A stretch of 64,000 bases of DNA, from positions 62,001 through 126,000 of the forward strand of contig NZ_NISI01000004.1 of the NCBI RefSeq assembly GCF_002205845.1, given 5' to 3'. This document shows positions 37,446 through 45,422 of the stretch, in pieces; position 1 is the first letter of the stretch, and the number at the start of each line of letters is the position of its first letter. The stretch is from Roseateles puraquae. GTDB taxonomy: Bacteria > Pseudomonadota > Gammaproteobacteria > Burkholderiales > Burkholderiaceae_C. The notes below the pieces were generated by a model that was given only the letters and a program-made list of their open reading frames with translations, had not been told where the DNA came from and searched no databases. A program made the position numbers and the translations under genes.

Positions 37446-37630
37446 GGGCGACGAATGCGGAGCGGGAGGGCGAAAGGGGGCGGATTCTAGAGACCCTCGG
37501 CAGGCCCTCGCCACCGCGGCCTGGCGGCCGCAACCCTGACGCCTTGACTTGACGGAGGTCAGAGCCGGCGCGCGAGCTGCTGCCTAGAGTGAGGCAACTT
37601 CACTGCAGGCGGCCCTGGCTGCTTCACACC

Positions 37631-39220
37631 ATGCTCGACCCCAAGCACGCCGACGTCTGGCTCGTCGGCGGCGGCATCGCCTCAATGGCGGCCGCCACCT
37701 TCCTCATCCGCGATGCCGGCATGCCCGGCGCGCGCATCCACATCCTGGAAGAGCTCGGCCTGGCCGGTGGCTGCCTGGACGGCAGCACCTCTCCGACGCA
37801 GCCGGGCTATGTGACCCGCGGCGGGCGCATGCTGTGTGAAGAGGTCTACCAATGCCTGTGGAACCTGCTGGACGGCATCCCGTCGCTGGAGCGGCCAGGC
37901 CTGTCGGTGCGGCAGGAGATCGTGGCCTTCAATGACCAGGTGCGCACCGAGGCCCATGCCCGATTGATCGGCGATGGCGCCCGCATCCTCGACGCCCGCC
38001 ACTACGGGCTCGATGGCCGCGACCGCGCCGAACTCACCCGCCTGCTGGCCACCCCGGAGGCGCTGCTGGGCGCCCGGCGCATCGACGAGCTGTTTTCGGC
38101 GCACTTCTTCGAGAGCCACTTCTGGCAGATGTGGCGTACCACCTTCGCCTTCCAGAACTGGCACAGCGCGATCGAGCTGCGCCGCTACTTCCTGCGCTTC
38201 CTGCAGGAGTTCCCGCGCATGCACACCCTCGCCGGCGTGCGCCGCACGCCCTACAACCAATACGACTCCATCGCCGTGCCGCTGCAGCGCTGGCTGCTGG
38301 ACCAGGGCGTGGACGTGCGCTTCGGCCACCGGGTGACCGACATCGACTTCGATCAGTCCGACCCGGCCCGGCGCCGCGCCACCCGACTGCATCTGTTGAC
38401 CCGTGAAGGCCCGCAGGCGATCGCGCTGGCGGACGGCGACGCCTGCCTCGTGACGCTGGGCTCGATCACGGCCGACGCCACCTACGGCAGCAACAGCGAC
38501 GCGCCCGAGCTGATCCGCGACCGGCGTGATGGCGCCTGGTCGCTGTGGGAGACGCTGGCGCGCAAGGCCGACGACTTCGGCCGCCCGCACACCTTCTTCA
38601 ACGTCGACGACAACAAATGGGAGTCGTTCACGCTGACCATGCACGGCCGCACGCTGCTGGACCGCATTGCCCGGTTCAGCGGCAACGAGCCGGGCACCGG
38701 CGCGCTGATGACTTTCGTCGACTCCAACTGGCTGATGTCGCTGGTGGTGCCCTACCAGCCGCATTTCCCGGACATGCCCGCCGACACGTTCACGGCCTGG
38801 GGCTACGGGCTGTTCATCGACGCGCCGGGCAACCATGTCCGCAAGCCCATGGCGCAGTGCAGTGGCCGCGAACTGCTGCAGGAGCTGCTGCATCACCTGC
38901 GCTTCGACGACATCCGCGACGAAGCCCTGGCCAGCACTGACGTCACGCCGGTGATGCTGCCCTATGCCTCAGCCATGTTCGCGCCGCGCAAGCCGGCCGA
39001 CCGACCGCGGGTGCTGCCGGTGGGCGCGGCCAACTTTGCCTTCCTCGGCCAACATGTGGAGCTGCCGGACGACACGGTCTACACCGTCGAGTACTCGGTG
39101 CACTGCGCCATGCACGCGGTGTACGGCCTGTTCGGCATCGACAAGCCCATCCCTGCGATCTACCAGGGCCTGCACGACCCCAAGGTGGGGCTGGATGCGC
39201 TGGCGGCGGCCTTCAGCTGA
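37631..39220 (+). CDS. ohyA: Oleate hydratase
   Basis: This 529-residue FAD enzyme adds water to the cis-9 double bond of fatty acids, giving 10-hydroxystearate. The Rossmann start VWLVGGGIASMAAATFL and the family signature RGGRMLCEEVYQCLWNLL are both visible. HFFESHFWQMWRTTFAFQNWHS and a Glu in the N-terminal loop fit the MCRA family. I chose the ATG at 37631, since the frame is open to a GTG at 37589 without family residues. No transporter is adjacent. Probably detoxifies or remodels unsaturated fatty acids. Confidence 0.95.
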   Translation: MLDPKHADVWLVGGGIASMAAATFLIRDAGMPGARIHILEELGLAGGCLDGSTSPTQPGYVTRGGRMLCEEVYQCLWNLLDGIPSLERPGLSVRQEIVAFNDQVRTEAHARLIGDGARILDARHYGLDGRDRAELTRLLATPEALLGARRIDELFSAHFFESHFWQMWRTTFAFQNWHSAIELRRYFLRFLQEFPRMHTLAGVRRTPYNQYDSIAVPLQRWLLDQGVDVRFGHRVTDIDFDQSDPARRRATRLHLLTREGPQAIALADGDACLVTLGSITADATYGSNSDAPELIRDRRDGAWSLWETLARKADDFGRPHTFFNVDDNKWESFTLTMHGRTLLDRIARFSGNEPGTGALMTFVDSNWLMSLVVPYQPHFPDMPADTFTAWGYGLFIDAPGNHVRKPMAQCSGRELLQELLHHLRFDDIRDEALASTDVTPVMLPYASAMFAPRKPADRPRVLPVGAANFAFLGQHVELPDDTVYTVEYSVHCAMHAVYGLFGIDKPIPAIYQGLHDPKVGLDALAAAFS

Positions 39221-41077: not shown

Positions 41078-43081
41078 ATGCTCGCGCCTGCCTTTTCTGC
41101 CCGCCCTTCTCGCCAACACGCCCCCCGCCCTCGCCTGCTTGTGCTGATGCTCGCCGCCGCCCTGGCGCTGGCCGCCTGCAACGGCAACGACGGCTATGAC
41201 GACAGCATCACCACCTTGCCGACCGAGCCGGCCGGCGTCGGCAGTGCCGACACCGCCCCCGTGCCCACTACGTTGGCCTATGTGGACAACGGCGCCAGCA
41301 ACCAGCGCAACAACCCCTGCCAGGTCACGCTCGAAACCAATGCCGGCGTGCGCGTGCTGCAAGGCTTTCTGGACGTGTGGACGCCCAGCAGCCTGAAGGT
41401 GGATGCCGGCGTGACGCTGGCTGCCGCCAACGGCTGCCCAGCCGTCACCGCCTCGCCCTGGACGGGCATCCCGGGCGATGCCACCGACGGGACGGTGAAG
41501 AACGCGGCCATCCACGCCGCCAACATCAACTACGTCAAGACCGTCACCCAGGCGCGCACGCCTGCGCAGGCCCTGGCGGCCTACCTCGATGACCGGCGCC
41601 AGAAGGGCTACAGCGTCAGCGACGGCATGGGCCCGCTGACCAGCGTGTGGCGCGCCGGCACCGGCCAGACGACCACCATCGCCGCGGTCGACGCCAACCA
41701 GCCGGTGACGCCGGCTGTCAACGACGCGGGCAACAACCTTGGCGTCGGCTCGGCCAGCAACGCCCGGCTGGGCCTGGCCGTGGATTTCATCGGCAACATC
41801 GCCGACGGTTCCACCGAGCCTGCCAAGCGCTTCTACAAGTACGCCCGCCCCTGGCGCTGGAGCAGCGACGTCAAGGTCGTGCCTGCGCTGGAATCAGCCA
41901 AGAGCAGCACGCCGACCACTGATGGCGGCTTCCCCAGCGGCCACACCGCCGAAGCCTGGCGCAACACCCTGGCCATGGCCTACCTGGTGCCGCAGCGCTA
42001 CCAGGAGCTGGTGGCCCGCGCGATGGAGATGGGCGAGAACCGCATCCTGGCCGGCATGCATTCGCCGCTGGACGTGATGGGCGGCCGCGTGCAAGCCACG
42101 GCCGTCGTGGCCTACAGCCTGAACAGCGCCGCCTACTACACGCCGACCGTCAAGGCGGCGGCGTTCGCGCAGGCGCAGAACTACCTCATCGGCCAGGCCG
42201 GCGTGGCCGATGCGGTCGCACTCAACAGCTACGCCCACACCGCCAAGACGACGGACACCGCCGCGACCGACTACGACCGCTTTGCCGACACCGCCGCCTG
42301 GCGCAAGGCCTACCTGCAACGCCTGACCTATGGCCTGGGCACCACCGGCGCCGCGGGCCAGCCTGCCACGGTGCCCAAGGGTGCCGAGGTGCTGCTGGAG
42401 ACCCGCCTGCCCTACCTCAGCGCCGACCAGCGGCGCGTGGTGCTCAAGACCACGGCGCTGGACTCGGGCCTGCCGCTGGGCAACGACGGCGAAGGCTGGG
42501 GGCGCCTGAACCTGTTCGCCGCGGCCGATGGCTACGCCGCCTTCAACGGTGACGTCAGCGTGACCATGGACGCGGCCCAGGGCGGCTTCAGTGCGCGGGA
42601 CAGCTGGCGCAACGACATTGGTGGCAAGGGTCGCCTGACCAAGCTGGGCAGCGGCATGCTGCGCCTGAGCGGCGCCAACACCTACAGCGGCGGCACGGTG
42701 CTCGCTGCCGGCACCTTGGCTGCGGACAGCAACGCCGCCTTCGGCACGGGCGATGTGTTCGTCAAGGGTGGCACGCTCGAGGTCGCCAGCCCTGGCACGC
42801 TGGCCGTGGGCGGCGGCTACACGCAAACCGCAGGCAGCCTGAGCCTGGTGCTCAACGCCAACGACGGTGGCCGGCTGAAGCTGGCCGGCGCGCTGACGGT
42901 CGCCGGCGGCGACCTCAAGCTCAGCTTTGCCGGCGTCACGCCGAAGGTGGGCGACACCCTCACCGTCATCAAGGGCTCGCAGCGCAAGGGCCGCTTCGCG
43001 TCGGTCAGCGTGGCCGGCTTCAGCAAGGTCACCGTGATCTATCTGGACGACGGCGTGCAGGTGAGGCTGGACGGCGTCTGA
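41078..43081 (+). CDS. PAP2 phosphatase fused to an autotransporter-type beta-strand repeat
   Basis: This 667-residue protein has a lipoprotein-like signal (LVLMLAAALALAAC, lipobox LAAC). A vanadium-haloperoxidase/PAP2 acid phosphatase domain occupies about residues 60-370, with KYARPWRW near 254, PSGH near 286 and RILAGMHSPLDVMGGR near 320-335 as the three active-site blocks. From about residue 500 the chain has a passenger-type autotransporter repeat (GSGMLRLSGANTYSGGTVLAAGTL) and a beta-helix-like tail. No C-terminal barrel of an autotransporter follows, so it is probably surface- or periplasm-anchored by lipid. Confidence 0.88.
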   Translation: MLAPAFSARPSRQHAPRPRLLVLMLAAALALAACNGNDGYDDSITTLPTEPAGVGSADTAPVPTTLAYVDNGASNQRNNPCQVTLETNAGVRVLQGFLDVWTPSSLKVDAGVTLAAANGCPAVTASPWTGIPGDATDGTVKNAAIHAANINYVKTVTQARTPAQALAAYLDDRRQKGYSVSDGMGPLTSVWRAGTGQTTTIAAVDANQPVTPAVNDAGNNLGVGSASNARLGLAVDFIGNIADGSTEPAKRFYKYARPWRWSSDVKVVPALESAKSSTPTTDGGFPSGHTAEAWRNTLAMAYLVPQRYQELVARAMEMGENRILAGMHSPLDVMGGRVQATAVVAYSLNSAAYYTPTVKAAAFAQAQNYLIGQAGVADAVALNSYAHTAKTTDTAATDYDRFADTAAWRKAYLQRLTYGLGTTGAAGQPATVPKGAEVLLETRLPYLSADQRRVVLKTTALDSGLPLGNDGEGWGRLNLFAAADGYAAFNGDVSVTMDAAQGGFSARDSWRNDIGGKGRLTKLGSGMLRLSGANTYSGGTVLAAGTLAADSNAAFGTGDVFVKGGTLEVASPGTLAVGGGYTQTAGSLSLVLNANDGGRLKLAGALTVAGGDLKLSFAGVTPKVGDTLTVIKGSQRKGRFASVSVAGFSKVTVIYLDDGVQVRLDGV

Positions 43082-43137: not shown

Positions 43138-43731
43138 ATGCGGCGCATGAAAAGCCTGCTCGCTGCACTCGTGGGCCTTCGAGGCGCCCTGGGCGCTCTG
43201 GCCCTGCTCGCCCTGCCTGCGTCATCCGCTTGGGCGCTGGACCTGCGCGATGGCGACATCGTGCTGTACCGCCACGCGCTGGCGCCCGGCGGCGGCGACC
43301 CACCCGGCTTCAAGCTCGGCGACTGCAGCACCCAGCGCAACCTCAGCGACGAGGGCCGCCAGCAGGCGCGGCAGATCGGCGATGCCCTGCGCCAGCGCCT
43401 GGGCCGGCTGCCCGTGGGCGCCGTCTGGTCGTCCCCCTGGTGCCGCACGCTGGAGACGGCGCGGCTCGCCTTCCCCTCAGCCCAGGTGCAGCCGCAGGCC
43501 GCTTTCGCGTCCTTCTTCGAGCAGGCCGACCGCGAGGCCGAGAGCCTGGCCGAGGCTCGTCAGCGGCTGTCGGGCTGGCGGGGGCCGGGCGTGCTGGTGG
43601 TCGTGACGCACCAGGTCAACATCACGGGTCTGACGGGCGTCTTCCCGTCGTCAGGCGAGGGTGTCGCCCTGCGCTTCGGTGACGGGAAACTCGCCGTGCT
43701 GGGCCGCATCGATCCGCCGCCGGCACATTGA
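43138..43731 (+). CDS. Exported histidine phosphatase family protein
   Basis: This 197-residue protein has a signal peptide (LLAALVGLRGALGALALLALPASSAWA). The phosphatase motif is LYRHALAPGGG (RHA in place of the more common RHG), with SSPWCRTLETA and VVTHQVNITGL supplying the second His. The motif set is that of histidine acid phosphatases of the phosphoglycerate mutase-like clan. Position after the PAP2 phosphatase suggests both act on phosphorylated periplasmic compounds. An alternative ATG is at 43147. Confidence 0.85.
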   Translation: MRRMKSLLAALVGLRGALGALALLALPASSAWALDLRDGDIVLYRHALAPGGGDPPGFKLGDCSTQRNLSDEGRQQARQIGDALRQRLGRLPVGAVWSSPWCRTLETARLAFPSAQVQPQAAFASFFEQADREAESLAEARQRLSGWRGPGVLVVVTHQVNITGLTGVFPSSGEGVALRFGDGKLAVLGRIDPPPAH

Positions 43732-43741
43732 AAAGGCGCGC

Positions 43742-43793
43742 TTGCCAGTGACGCGGCAACGCACTAAGCTATTAACAAATGAGTTAATAGCTT
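43742..43793 (+). promoter_or_regulatory. Promoter and perfect 11-bp inverted-repeat operator of the arsR-like gene
   Basis: AAGCTATTAAC (43766-43776) and GTTAATAGCTT (43783-43793) are exact inverted copies with a six-base spacer, six bases before the ATG. TTGCCA (43742-43747) and TAAGCT (43765-43770) 17 bases apart give a promoter whose -10 box lies in the left arm. Such a site is expected for an autorepressing ArsR-family dimer. Its AT-richness stands out from the surroundings. Confidence 0.8.
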
Positions 43794-43799
43794 GGTTTC

Positions 43800-44153
43800 A
43801 TGCAACTTGACCGCGTCTTTGAAGCACTGGCGTCTTCACCCCGCCGGCAGATCCTGGCCTACCTGGCAGGCGGCGAGCTGAGCACCTCAGCGTTGGCCGA
43901 ACGGTTCGAGATGAGCGCTCCTGCGATTTCGCGCCATCTCTCCATCCTTGAGACCGCGGAGCTCGTGACGAGTCGGCGCCAGGGCCAGTTCGTGCTGTAC
44001 GCGCTGAATGCCGACAACCTGGTGACCAGCCTCACGGGTTACGCCATGGAGGTCTGCCCGGTGGGCCGGCCCCTGAAGCGGGAGGCCAAGGCGCAGGCCT
44101 CGGCGCGCACCCGCAAGGTCACGCCCACCCCACCCAAGGCCACACGTTCCTGA
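43800..44153 (+). CDS. ArsR-family winged-helix regulator
   Basis: This 117-residue regulator starts with the typical pattern VFEALASSPRRQILAYLAGGELSTSALAERFEMSAPAISRHLSILE, an HTH of the autorepressor (SdpR) branch. The metal-binding CxC of arsenic sensors is not present. A basic, proline/threonine-rich tail of about 30 residues follows. It sits 12 bases before the desaturase gene and directly after a perfect operator, so it probably controls itself and the desaturase. Confidence 0.92.
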   Translation: MQLDRVFEALASSPRRQILAYLAGGELSTSALAERFEMSAPAISRHLSILETAELVTSRRQGQFVLYALNADNLVTSLTGYAMEVCPVGRPLKREAKAQASARTRKVTPTPPKATRS

Positions 44154-44165
44154 AGGACGCCGACC

Positions 44166-45422
44166 ATGCCGCCCACCCCTGTGCCGTCACTGGACTTTCA
44201 TCGAGTGCAGGCCGCGTCGCCGCAGGACCTGCTGGCGGGCCAAGTGCGCTACTCACCCGCCAAGTCGCTGTGGCTGCTGGGCCATGCGGCGGGTGCGGTG
44301 GCGGGGGCGTGGTTCTACTTCAGCCTGTCGTCGATCACCGTGTTTCTGCTGGCGACCGGTGCCGTGCTGCTGCTCGGCCATTCGCTGGGAAGTCACCGCT
44401 TGTTGATCCACGGCAGCTATCGCTGCCCTCGCTGGCTGGCGCGCGTGCTGGTCTACCTTGGCGTGCAGGTCGGGCTGGCCGGGCCGCTGTCGCTGCTGCG
44501 CCAGCATGAGCTGCGGGACTACGCCCAGCGCCTGCCCGATTGCCACCCCTATCTGCGCCATGGCACCACGTTCTGGCGCGACGCCTGGTGGCAACTGCAC
44601 TGCGAGCTGCATCTCACGCGACCGCCGCGACTCTCGATCGAGCCTCGGCTGGCTGAGGACCGCTTCTATGCCTGGCTGGACCGGACCTGGATGTGGCAGC
44701 AGCTGCCGCCGGCCGTACTGCTGCTCGCGCTGGGGGGTTGGGGCTGGGTCTGCTGGGGCGTCTGCGCACGCATCTGCGCTGGCGTGATCGGGCACTGGCT
44801 GATCGGCCACTTTGCCCACAACGCAGGAGGCATGCACCACGTCGTGGAGGGTGCTGCCGTCCAGGGTCGCAACATCCGCTGGACCTCGCTACTCACCATG
44901 GGGGAGAGCTGGCACAACAACCACCACGCCTTCCCGGGCTCCGCGCGTCTGGGTTTGCAGGCCGGCGAGTGGGACCCTGGCTGGTGGATGCTGCTGGCGC
45001 TGCGGCGTGCAGGCCTCGTCTGGGACCTGCGCCTGCCGCAAGACCTGCCCGCCCGGGCAGAGTTGCGCGCCCTGACCCCGCAGCCAGCGCCTGCCCACTC
45101 CAGCCTGGGCGGCTGGCGGGACCTGCCGGCGCTGCGAGGGCAGCTGCGTGCGACTGCGGGGCGCACGCTGCACCTGCAGGGCCCAGGGGCCTCGGTGCCG
45201 GCGCGCTGGCTGCAGGCCATGACCGGCCAGAAGCTGCATGTCGACAAGCAGCTGGCGCGTCTGGAACTGCACGACCCCACGGTCGGCATCGTCGTGCGGG
45301 GCCTGCCAGCCCTGTGCGTGGCGGTGGCCCGGCGAGGTGCTGCGGCTCACGCCATCGCCCGGGCACTACTGCCTGCCGCCGCGGCCCTCGAATCCGCACG
45401 CGTGCGGCTGACCGTGGCCTGA
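44166..45422 (+). CDS. Fatty acid desaturase-like protein with altered second His box
   Basis: This 418-residue membrane protein has four or so hydrophobic segments. His box 1 is GHSLGSHR (residues 70-77). Box 3 is ESWHNNHHAF (247-256). The second box, normally HxxHH, is LLRQHELRDYAQ (110-121) and lacks the His pair. Other histidines (CHPYLRHG, GHFAHNAGGMHHVV) could complete a metal site. The C-terminal about 110 residues are an extra soluble part. AAGGA precedes the ATG. It forms an operon with the ArsR-like gene. The reaction is uncertain. Confidence 0.82.
   Translation: MPPTPVPSLDFHRVQAASPQDLLAGQVRYSPAKSLWLLGHAAGAVAGAWFYFSLSSITVFLLATGAVLLLGHSLGSHRLLIHGSYRCPRWLARVLVYLGVQVGLAGPLSLLRQHELRDYAQRLPDCHPYLRHGTTFWRDAWWQLHCELHLTRPPRLSIEPRLAEDRFYAWLDRTWMWQQLPPAVLLLALGGWGWVCWGVCARICAGVIGHWLIGHFAHNAGGMHHVVEGAAVQGRNIRWTSLLTMGESWHNNHHAFPGSARLGLQAGEWDPGWWMLLALRRAGLVWDLRLPQDLPARAELRALTPQPAPAHSSLGGWRDLPALRGQLRATAGRTLHLQGPGASVPARWLQAMTGQKLHVDKQLARLELHDPTVGIVVRGLPALCVAVARRGAAAHAIARALLPAAAALESARVRLTVA

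Follow-up and report, generated by a model that had tools for sequence, protein, structure and literature searches.

Introduction

The ArsR/SmtB metalloregulators (HTH_5; NF033788) are winged-helix proteins with an AT-rich inverted repeat over their own promoter region, and the metal-sensing ArsR members are marked by a CxC motif in helix 3. The SdpR-type autorepressors (NF033789), also small proteins of the ArsR fold, are linked to an SdpI-type immunity gene and are not known to have a metal site. For the persulfide and peroxide sensors of the BigR/SqrR and RexT type, two cysteines per protomer are given as the criterion in section 4 of PMC10509353. In Mycobacterium tuberculosis, footprints of the ArsR-type autorepressor Rv2034 cover positions -30 to +3 in the promoter region of its gene, with a numbering that is assumed, after the legend of Figure 7, to run from the start codon (PMC3338718), and Brucella ArsR6 is another autorepressor according to PMC8509827. 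PMC7055735 presents SrnR of Streptomyces griseus as nickel-responsive and working with SrnQ, and PMC12445080 gives the site consensus of NolR as (A/T)TTAG-N9-A(T/A).

Here we analyse a small arsR gene within a 64-kb stretch of DNA, referred to below as the window, together with the inverted repeat in front of it. Judged by its sequence and by that of its relatives, the repeat very probably lets the ArsR-type product occlude the promoter and thereby repress the arsR-desaturase operon that encodes it, an arrangement that appears to be real, recurrent and ordinary in kind. The locus provides a concrete candidate operator and a likely target for ArsR-type proteins devoid of CxC. Among the matches listed by literature searches for ArsR with desaturase, for SdpR or autorepressor, for NolR, for leaderless ArsR and for the string TTAGCTAA, neither the gene pair nor the site appeared in titles or abstract openings, most subscription journals lying outside the coverage.

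Results

The features of the locus are the following.

43742..43747, + strand: candidate -35 hexamer TTGCCA (own scan; absent from a stricter scan)
43765..43770, + strand: candidate -10 hexamer TAAGCT, 17 bp after the -35 hexamer, overlapping the left operator arm (own scan; inferred)
43766..43793, no strand assigned: putative operator, a perfect 11-bp inverted repeat with a 6-bp spacer (sequence, genome search, shuffles, resamples)
43772..43787, no strand assigned: TTAAC-N6-GTTAA, the window's version of the family core TTARC-N6-GYTAA (found without mismatch at 25 of the 47 arsR genes compared, this one among them)
43800..44153, + strand: regulator of the ArsR/SmtB type, 117 aa, with Cys86 as its only cysteine (Pfam, NCBIfam, structure and relative comparisons)
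44166..45422, + strand: 418-aa protein resembling membrane fatty-acid desaturases, probably encoded by the second gene of the operon, box 2 HxxRD (Pfam, relatives)

The first-pass annotation of this DNA had described a perfect 11-bp inverted repeat ending six bases before the start codon, and both parts of the description are confirmed. The operator reads AAGCTATTAAC-AAATGA-GTTAATAGCTT, with the left arm at 43766-43776, the spacer at 43777-43782 and the right arm at 43783-43793, and is separated from the arsR ATG at 43800 by the six bases GGTTTC. This start is fixed by an in-frame TAG at 43788, from which no ATG, GTG or TTG codon is found up to 43800, together with a protein beginning common to ten relatives. 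With up to three mismatches allowed, the 28-bp operator occurs once in the window (never in 100 shuffles) and once in the 6.06-Mb genome, where no second full copy was found at that threshold. The window contains two perfect inverted repeats whose arms reach 11 bp or more around a loop of 3-10, against a mean of 0.32 (range 0-2) in 60 first-order Markov resamples, and an 11-bp arm by itself is only mildly rare in 64 kb; it is position and conservation, not arm length alone, that make the operator convincing. A two-codon frame, ATG-AGT-TAA, lying in the spacer region (43779-43787) was set aside as a probable consequence of the spacer's richness in A and T. Of the 36 loci whose core deviates at no more than one position, 5, the window included, have an ATG at the corresponding place in the spacer (43779 in the window).

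The regulator scores above the cut-offs of Pfam HTH_5 (48.4 against 22) and of the NCBIfam ArsR/SmtB model NF033788 (82.6 against 55). With the SdpR type it would share the character of a small autorepressor of the ArsR fold, but its score against NF033789 (75.9 bits) lies below the cut-off of 100, and its neighbours are desaturase-like and histidine-phosphatase-like genes, with no SdpI-type immunity gene among them. Among solved structures, SrnR (7p6f, E 1.1e-16) is the nearest in sequence, the likeness extending to a CP motif near the C-terminus; however, the nickel response and the partnership with SrnQ are described for SrnR, whereas the window's regulator is likened to it by sequence alone. 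The regulator had been said to lack the metal-binding CxC, correctly, since no such motif is present in its 117 residues and Cys86 is the only cysteine. In this it differs from the ArsR/SmtB metalloregulators, with which it shares the winged-helix type and an AT-rich inverted repeat across the putative promoter of its gene; it also differs from them in being linked to a desaturase-like gene and not to a metal pump. Likewise, the pair of cysteines per protomer of the BigR/SqrR and RexT sensors is absent, only one being found, which rules out two-cysteine persulfide or peroxide chemistry within one protomer; an inter-subunit disulfide or a bound ligand would be compatible with a single cysteine. 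Cys86 is present in 41 of the 47 proteins compared, the window's included, and the remaining six (L035-L040) are without that segment, so this residue cannot be needed in every member.

Genes of this type are sparse, being found in at least 10 of 299 genomes of the family (single-protein search, E 1e-12; five of these matches were weaker and were later left out of the comparison), at least 16 of 399 of the order and at least 18 of 398 of the phylum (profile, E 1e-25), the window's own genome counting in each. Fifty-seven of 58 loci gave an arsR match, the exception being L005, and removal of two duplicates of the window (L001, L027) and of eight weak matches (L003, L004, L006, L012-L016) left the 47 loci that were compared, among them the window's own (L007) and the near-duplicates L025/L026, L044/L045, L055/L056 and L021/L046. 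Between -120 and +12 of the arsR start, an exact TTARC-N6-GYTAA is found in 25 of the 47 genes, whereas Markov resampling of these stretches predicts 0.03; at most one mismatch raises this to 36 (0.64 expected) and at most two to 44 (7.1 expected), leaving three loci (L029, L042, L051) in which no core was found at that level. The pattern was defined after inspection of the sequences counted, and the counts are descriptive; the excess of exact matches is very large. Both the core and its position near the arsR start recur in proteobacteria, in actinobacteria and in one acidobacterial MAG, which supports the earlier reading of the repeat as a putative operator for an autorepressor of the ArsR type. 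The window's own core is lengthened to arms of 11 bp.

The same recurrence bears on the idea that the repeat belongs to another regulator and that arsR lies behind it by accident. The genome encodes seven ArsR-type matches besides the window's regulator, one of them with a core-like site in a divergent intergenic stretch, yet the core accompanies the window's type of arsR across lineages despite different neighbours, and we regard a foreign regulator as the least probable of the explanations considered. The core is not specific by itself, with three sites in the genome against two for a reversed control pattern. One core-like site (L059 1501-1516; C6:34714-34729 of the same genome) lies between another ArsR-type gene and a divergent gene that by eye is efflux-adaptor-like; another (L061 1501-1516; C38:167953-167968) lies 9 bases 5' of a small open frame, which together with the next frame resembles, again by eye, a RelE/HigB-type toxin and helix-turn-helix antitoxin pair. 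As extra targets, these core-only sites were discarded, since they do not rise above the reversed control pattern.

Compared with the sites of described regulators, the core is distinct. Rv2034 is of the same autorepressor type, with a footprint around its own gene start, and offers a precedent for autorepression, but its site has arms CCGTAAGT and a 4-bp spacer in place of TTARC-N6-GYTAA. NolR (4omy) is a further relative of the ArsR fold and the TTAG-type site is NolR's; no TTAG occurs on either strand of 43766-43793, and those exact-core relatives that carry TTAGC differ from the published consensus in having T and not A after N9.

The operator had also been proposed to contain the -10 box. 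This is plausible, but the match is weak: TTGCCA-17-TAAGCT agrees with the consensus at 8 of 12 positions, and the stricter scan of 43600-44300 found neither a standard sigma-70 promoter nor a terminator. TAAGCT overlaps the left arm and begins one base outside it. The pattern would place the transcript start near 43777. Here and below, promoters are pattern matches and not mapped starts. With respect to the core, TAAGCT stands in the same register as TAGACT, CATACT and TATACT in L035-L040. Clearer examples are found in L030 and L031, where a clear promoter match, TTGACA-17-TTTAAT, overlaps the core; in these and in L053 and L054, TTGACA lies 29-32 bp before the core, the -10 hexamer abuts or overlaps it, and the predicted start falls 22-25 bases before the start codon. 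The window appears to fit this arrangement weakly. In five other loci (L018, L020, L044, L045, L048) the best hexamers flank the core, with a predicted start at most 2 bases from the ATG. The position of the clear elements in L030, L031, L053 and L054 also bears on the proposal that the regulator acts here as an activator, or together with a partner, and switches the operon on in the manner of SrnR. Besides the structural match already mentioned, this proposal draws on two reference titles, one (in PMC10509353) calling SrnR a nickel-binding transcriptional activator and the other (in PMC7055735) having SrnQ repress sodF with SrnR. Nevertheless, promoter elements that overlap the core are better explained by blocking than by activation, and we hold an activating role to be highly improbable; it explains less than steric autorepression, as does a foreign regulator.

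A third possibility places the action in the RNA: on read-through transcripts a hairpin would mask the start codon of arsR, and translation would be limited to transcripts made from the arsR promoter itself. A possible source of read-through is an upstream open frame on the same strand that ends 68 bases before the ATG, and the RNA of 43750-43830 has a computed fold of -33.4 kcal/mol (z -6.3, unmatched in 200 shuffles), in which the repeat forms an inner stem and an outer stem, GACGCGG/CCGCGTC, encloses the start codon. However, when the operator was held fixed and the flanks of 43740-43830 were resampled, 89 of 1000 sequences folded equally well, and for the hairpins of 11 relatives between 20 and 151 of 200 resamples were as good, with no consistent excess. 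Moreover, arm positions beyond the 5 bp of the core are each paired in no more than 8-15 of the 25 exact-core loci, which indicates that a DNA core is kept and not a long stem, and RNA beginning at 43777, the predicted start, is not unusually structured (z 0.28). The fold being strong but unexceptional once the operator is held fixed, the hairpin reading was rejected as very unlikely, and repression at the DNA is preferred.

The claim that no Shine-Dalgarno sequence precedes arsR holds, the pairing of the 16S tail to the stretch from -20 to -3 amounting to only -2.7 kcal/mol. Weak pairing is likewise found in 28 of the 31 loci with a close operator, three of which (L019, L055, L056) reach -4 kcal/mol or better (median 0.5, with corrected starts). 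By comparison, that level is reached by 38 of 80 further open frames in these loci (median -3.7) and by 4 of the 16 loci in which the operator is further off or poorer. The one-sided p of 4e-7 for this test ignores relatedness, uses uncorrected starts and takes as controls first-ATG open frames and not curated genes. The correction concerns L036, L039 and L040, for which the scan had started at a downstream GTG, the likelier start being an in-frame ATG or GTG in the operator spacer; it changes 4 of 31 to 3 of 31, and the downstream GTG was kept in the core counts, the promoter scan and the spacer-ATG count. In fact, in L036-L040, all of the same order, the spacer opens with an in-frame ATG (GTG in L036), and the right half-site GTTAAT then encodes Val-Asn of the protein. 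This start codon lies six bases behind CATACT, TAGACT or TATACT, hexamers that were the scan's best in L036 and L040 only. A start codon inside the operator spacer suggests leaderless transcripts in these five relatives.

Membrane fatty-acid desaturases typically carry three histidine boxes, HxxxxH, HxxHH and HxxHH. The gene that begins 12 bases after arsR encodes a protein that scores above the cut-off of PF00487 (39.5 against 29.7) and matches the solved desaturase 4ymk only weakly (E 0.24). Box 1 is kept in 19 of 19 proteins of this type and box 3 in all 18 that reach that far, while box 2 departs from the canonical form, being H114-xx-R117-D118-xx-Q121 (HxxRD) in all 19, the window included. 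A desaturase of this type is found in at least 19 of the 47 loci, most of which comprise about 1.5 kb per side or less: beside arsR in 17 and further off in two. It lies downstream and in the same direction in five (the window, L008, L030, L031 and L033), divergent with its aligned start at most 146 bases from arsR in 12, and divergent at 538 bases in L048 and about 1090 in L058. Within 130 bases before arsR, at least two core-like sites (at most two mismatches) are present in 7 of 13 divergent loci, one in five and none in L042; in L018 they lie at -24 and -65, with one mismatch each.

The linkage is not strict, no desaturase being found within the locus DNA compared in L032, whose regulator is 68% identical, or in L045, a near twin of L044. 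Other neighbours of arsR are a COQ7-type protein (L010), a methyltransferase with a DCC1-like protein (L034), a DUF2867 protein (L011) and, in L045, a protein that matched no Pfam family; given such variety, this type of regulator is not confined to a single target. The frames downstream of arsR in L011, L053 and L054 look alike by eye, L011 being the one scanned, which suggests a DUF2867-like gene as a second recurrent partner. Elsewhere in the window, about 4.6 kb from arsR, 37589-39217 encodes an MCRA-family protein (Pfam PF06100, E 5e-187), which we take to be of the oleate hydratase type, and the frame at 41078-43081 joins a PAP2 phosphatase domain to an autotransporter-type PATR repeat, a pairing that seems unusual.

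Discussion

The observations on which a model can be built are the repeat and its single genomic occurrence, the recurrence of core and position, the regulator family, the desaturase linkage and the weak Shine-Dalgarno pairing. From these we infer binding, the direction of control, the promoter, a shared transcript and an inducer, as follows. A winged-helix ArsR-type dimer would read the TTAAC-N6-GTTAA core and, by covering the -10 region together with the beginning of the transcribed sequence, would block the start of RNA polymerase. The regulator would thereby shut off its own gene and, if the transcript is shared, as the distance of 12 bases suggests, the desaturase-like gene as well. A signal, perhaps a small molecule or a redox or thiol change on the dimer, would release it and allow the desaturase to be made; the association with one desaturase-like enzyme suggests membrane lipids, or a related substrate, for that role. 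arsR would be translated without a clear Shine-Dalgarno sequence from an AU-rich leader of about 23 nt, and leaderless transcripts may occur in several relatives.

Less ordinary than autorepression itself are the desaturase linkage, the HxxRD box and an operator that sits at the translation start. We may hypothesize, tentatively and with more doubt than conviction, that a mostly single-cysteine ArsR subfamily has fused its operator to the translation start, to the point of encoding the start codon and first residues, so that one site would set both repression and a leaderless or Shine-Dalgarno-free start, and that in many bacteria it controls an HxxRD desaturase-like enzyme with Cys86 or a lipid product as input. 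The five relatives with a start codon in the operator make leaderless initiation under repressor control straightforwardly testable. In Nocardia (L003, L004), a more distant ArsR-type gene has a perfect repeat of its own, ATACTGAAC-6-GTTCAGTAT, with an ATG in the spacer.
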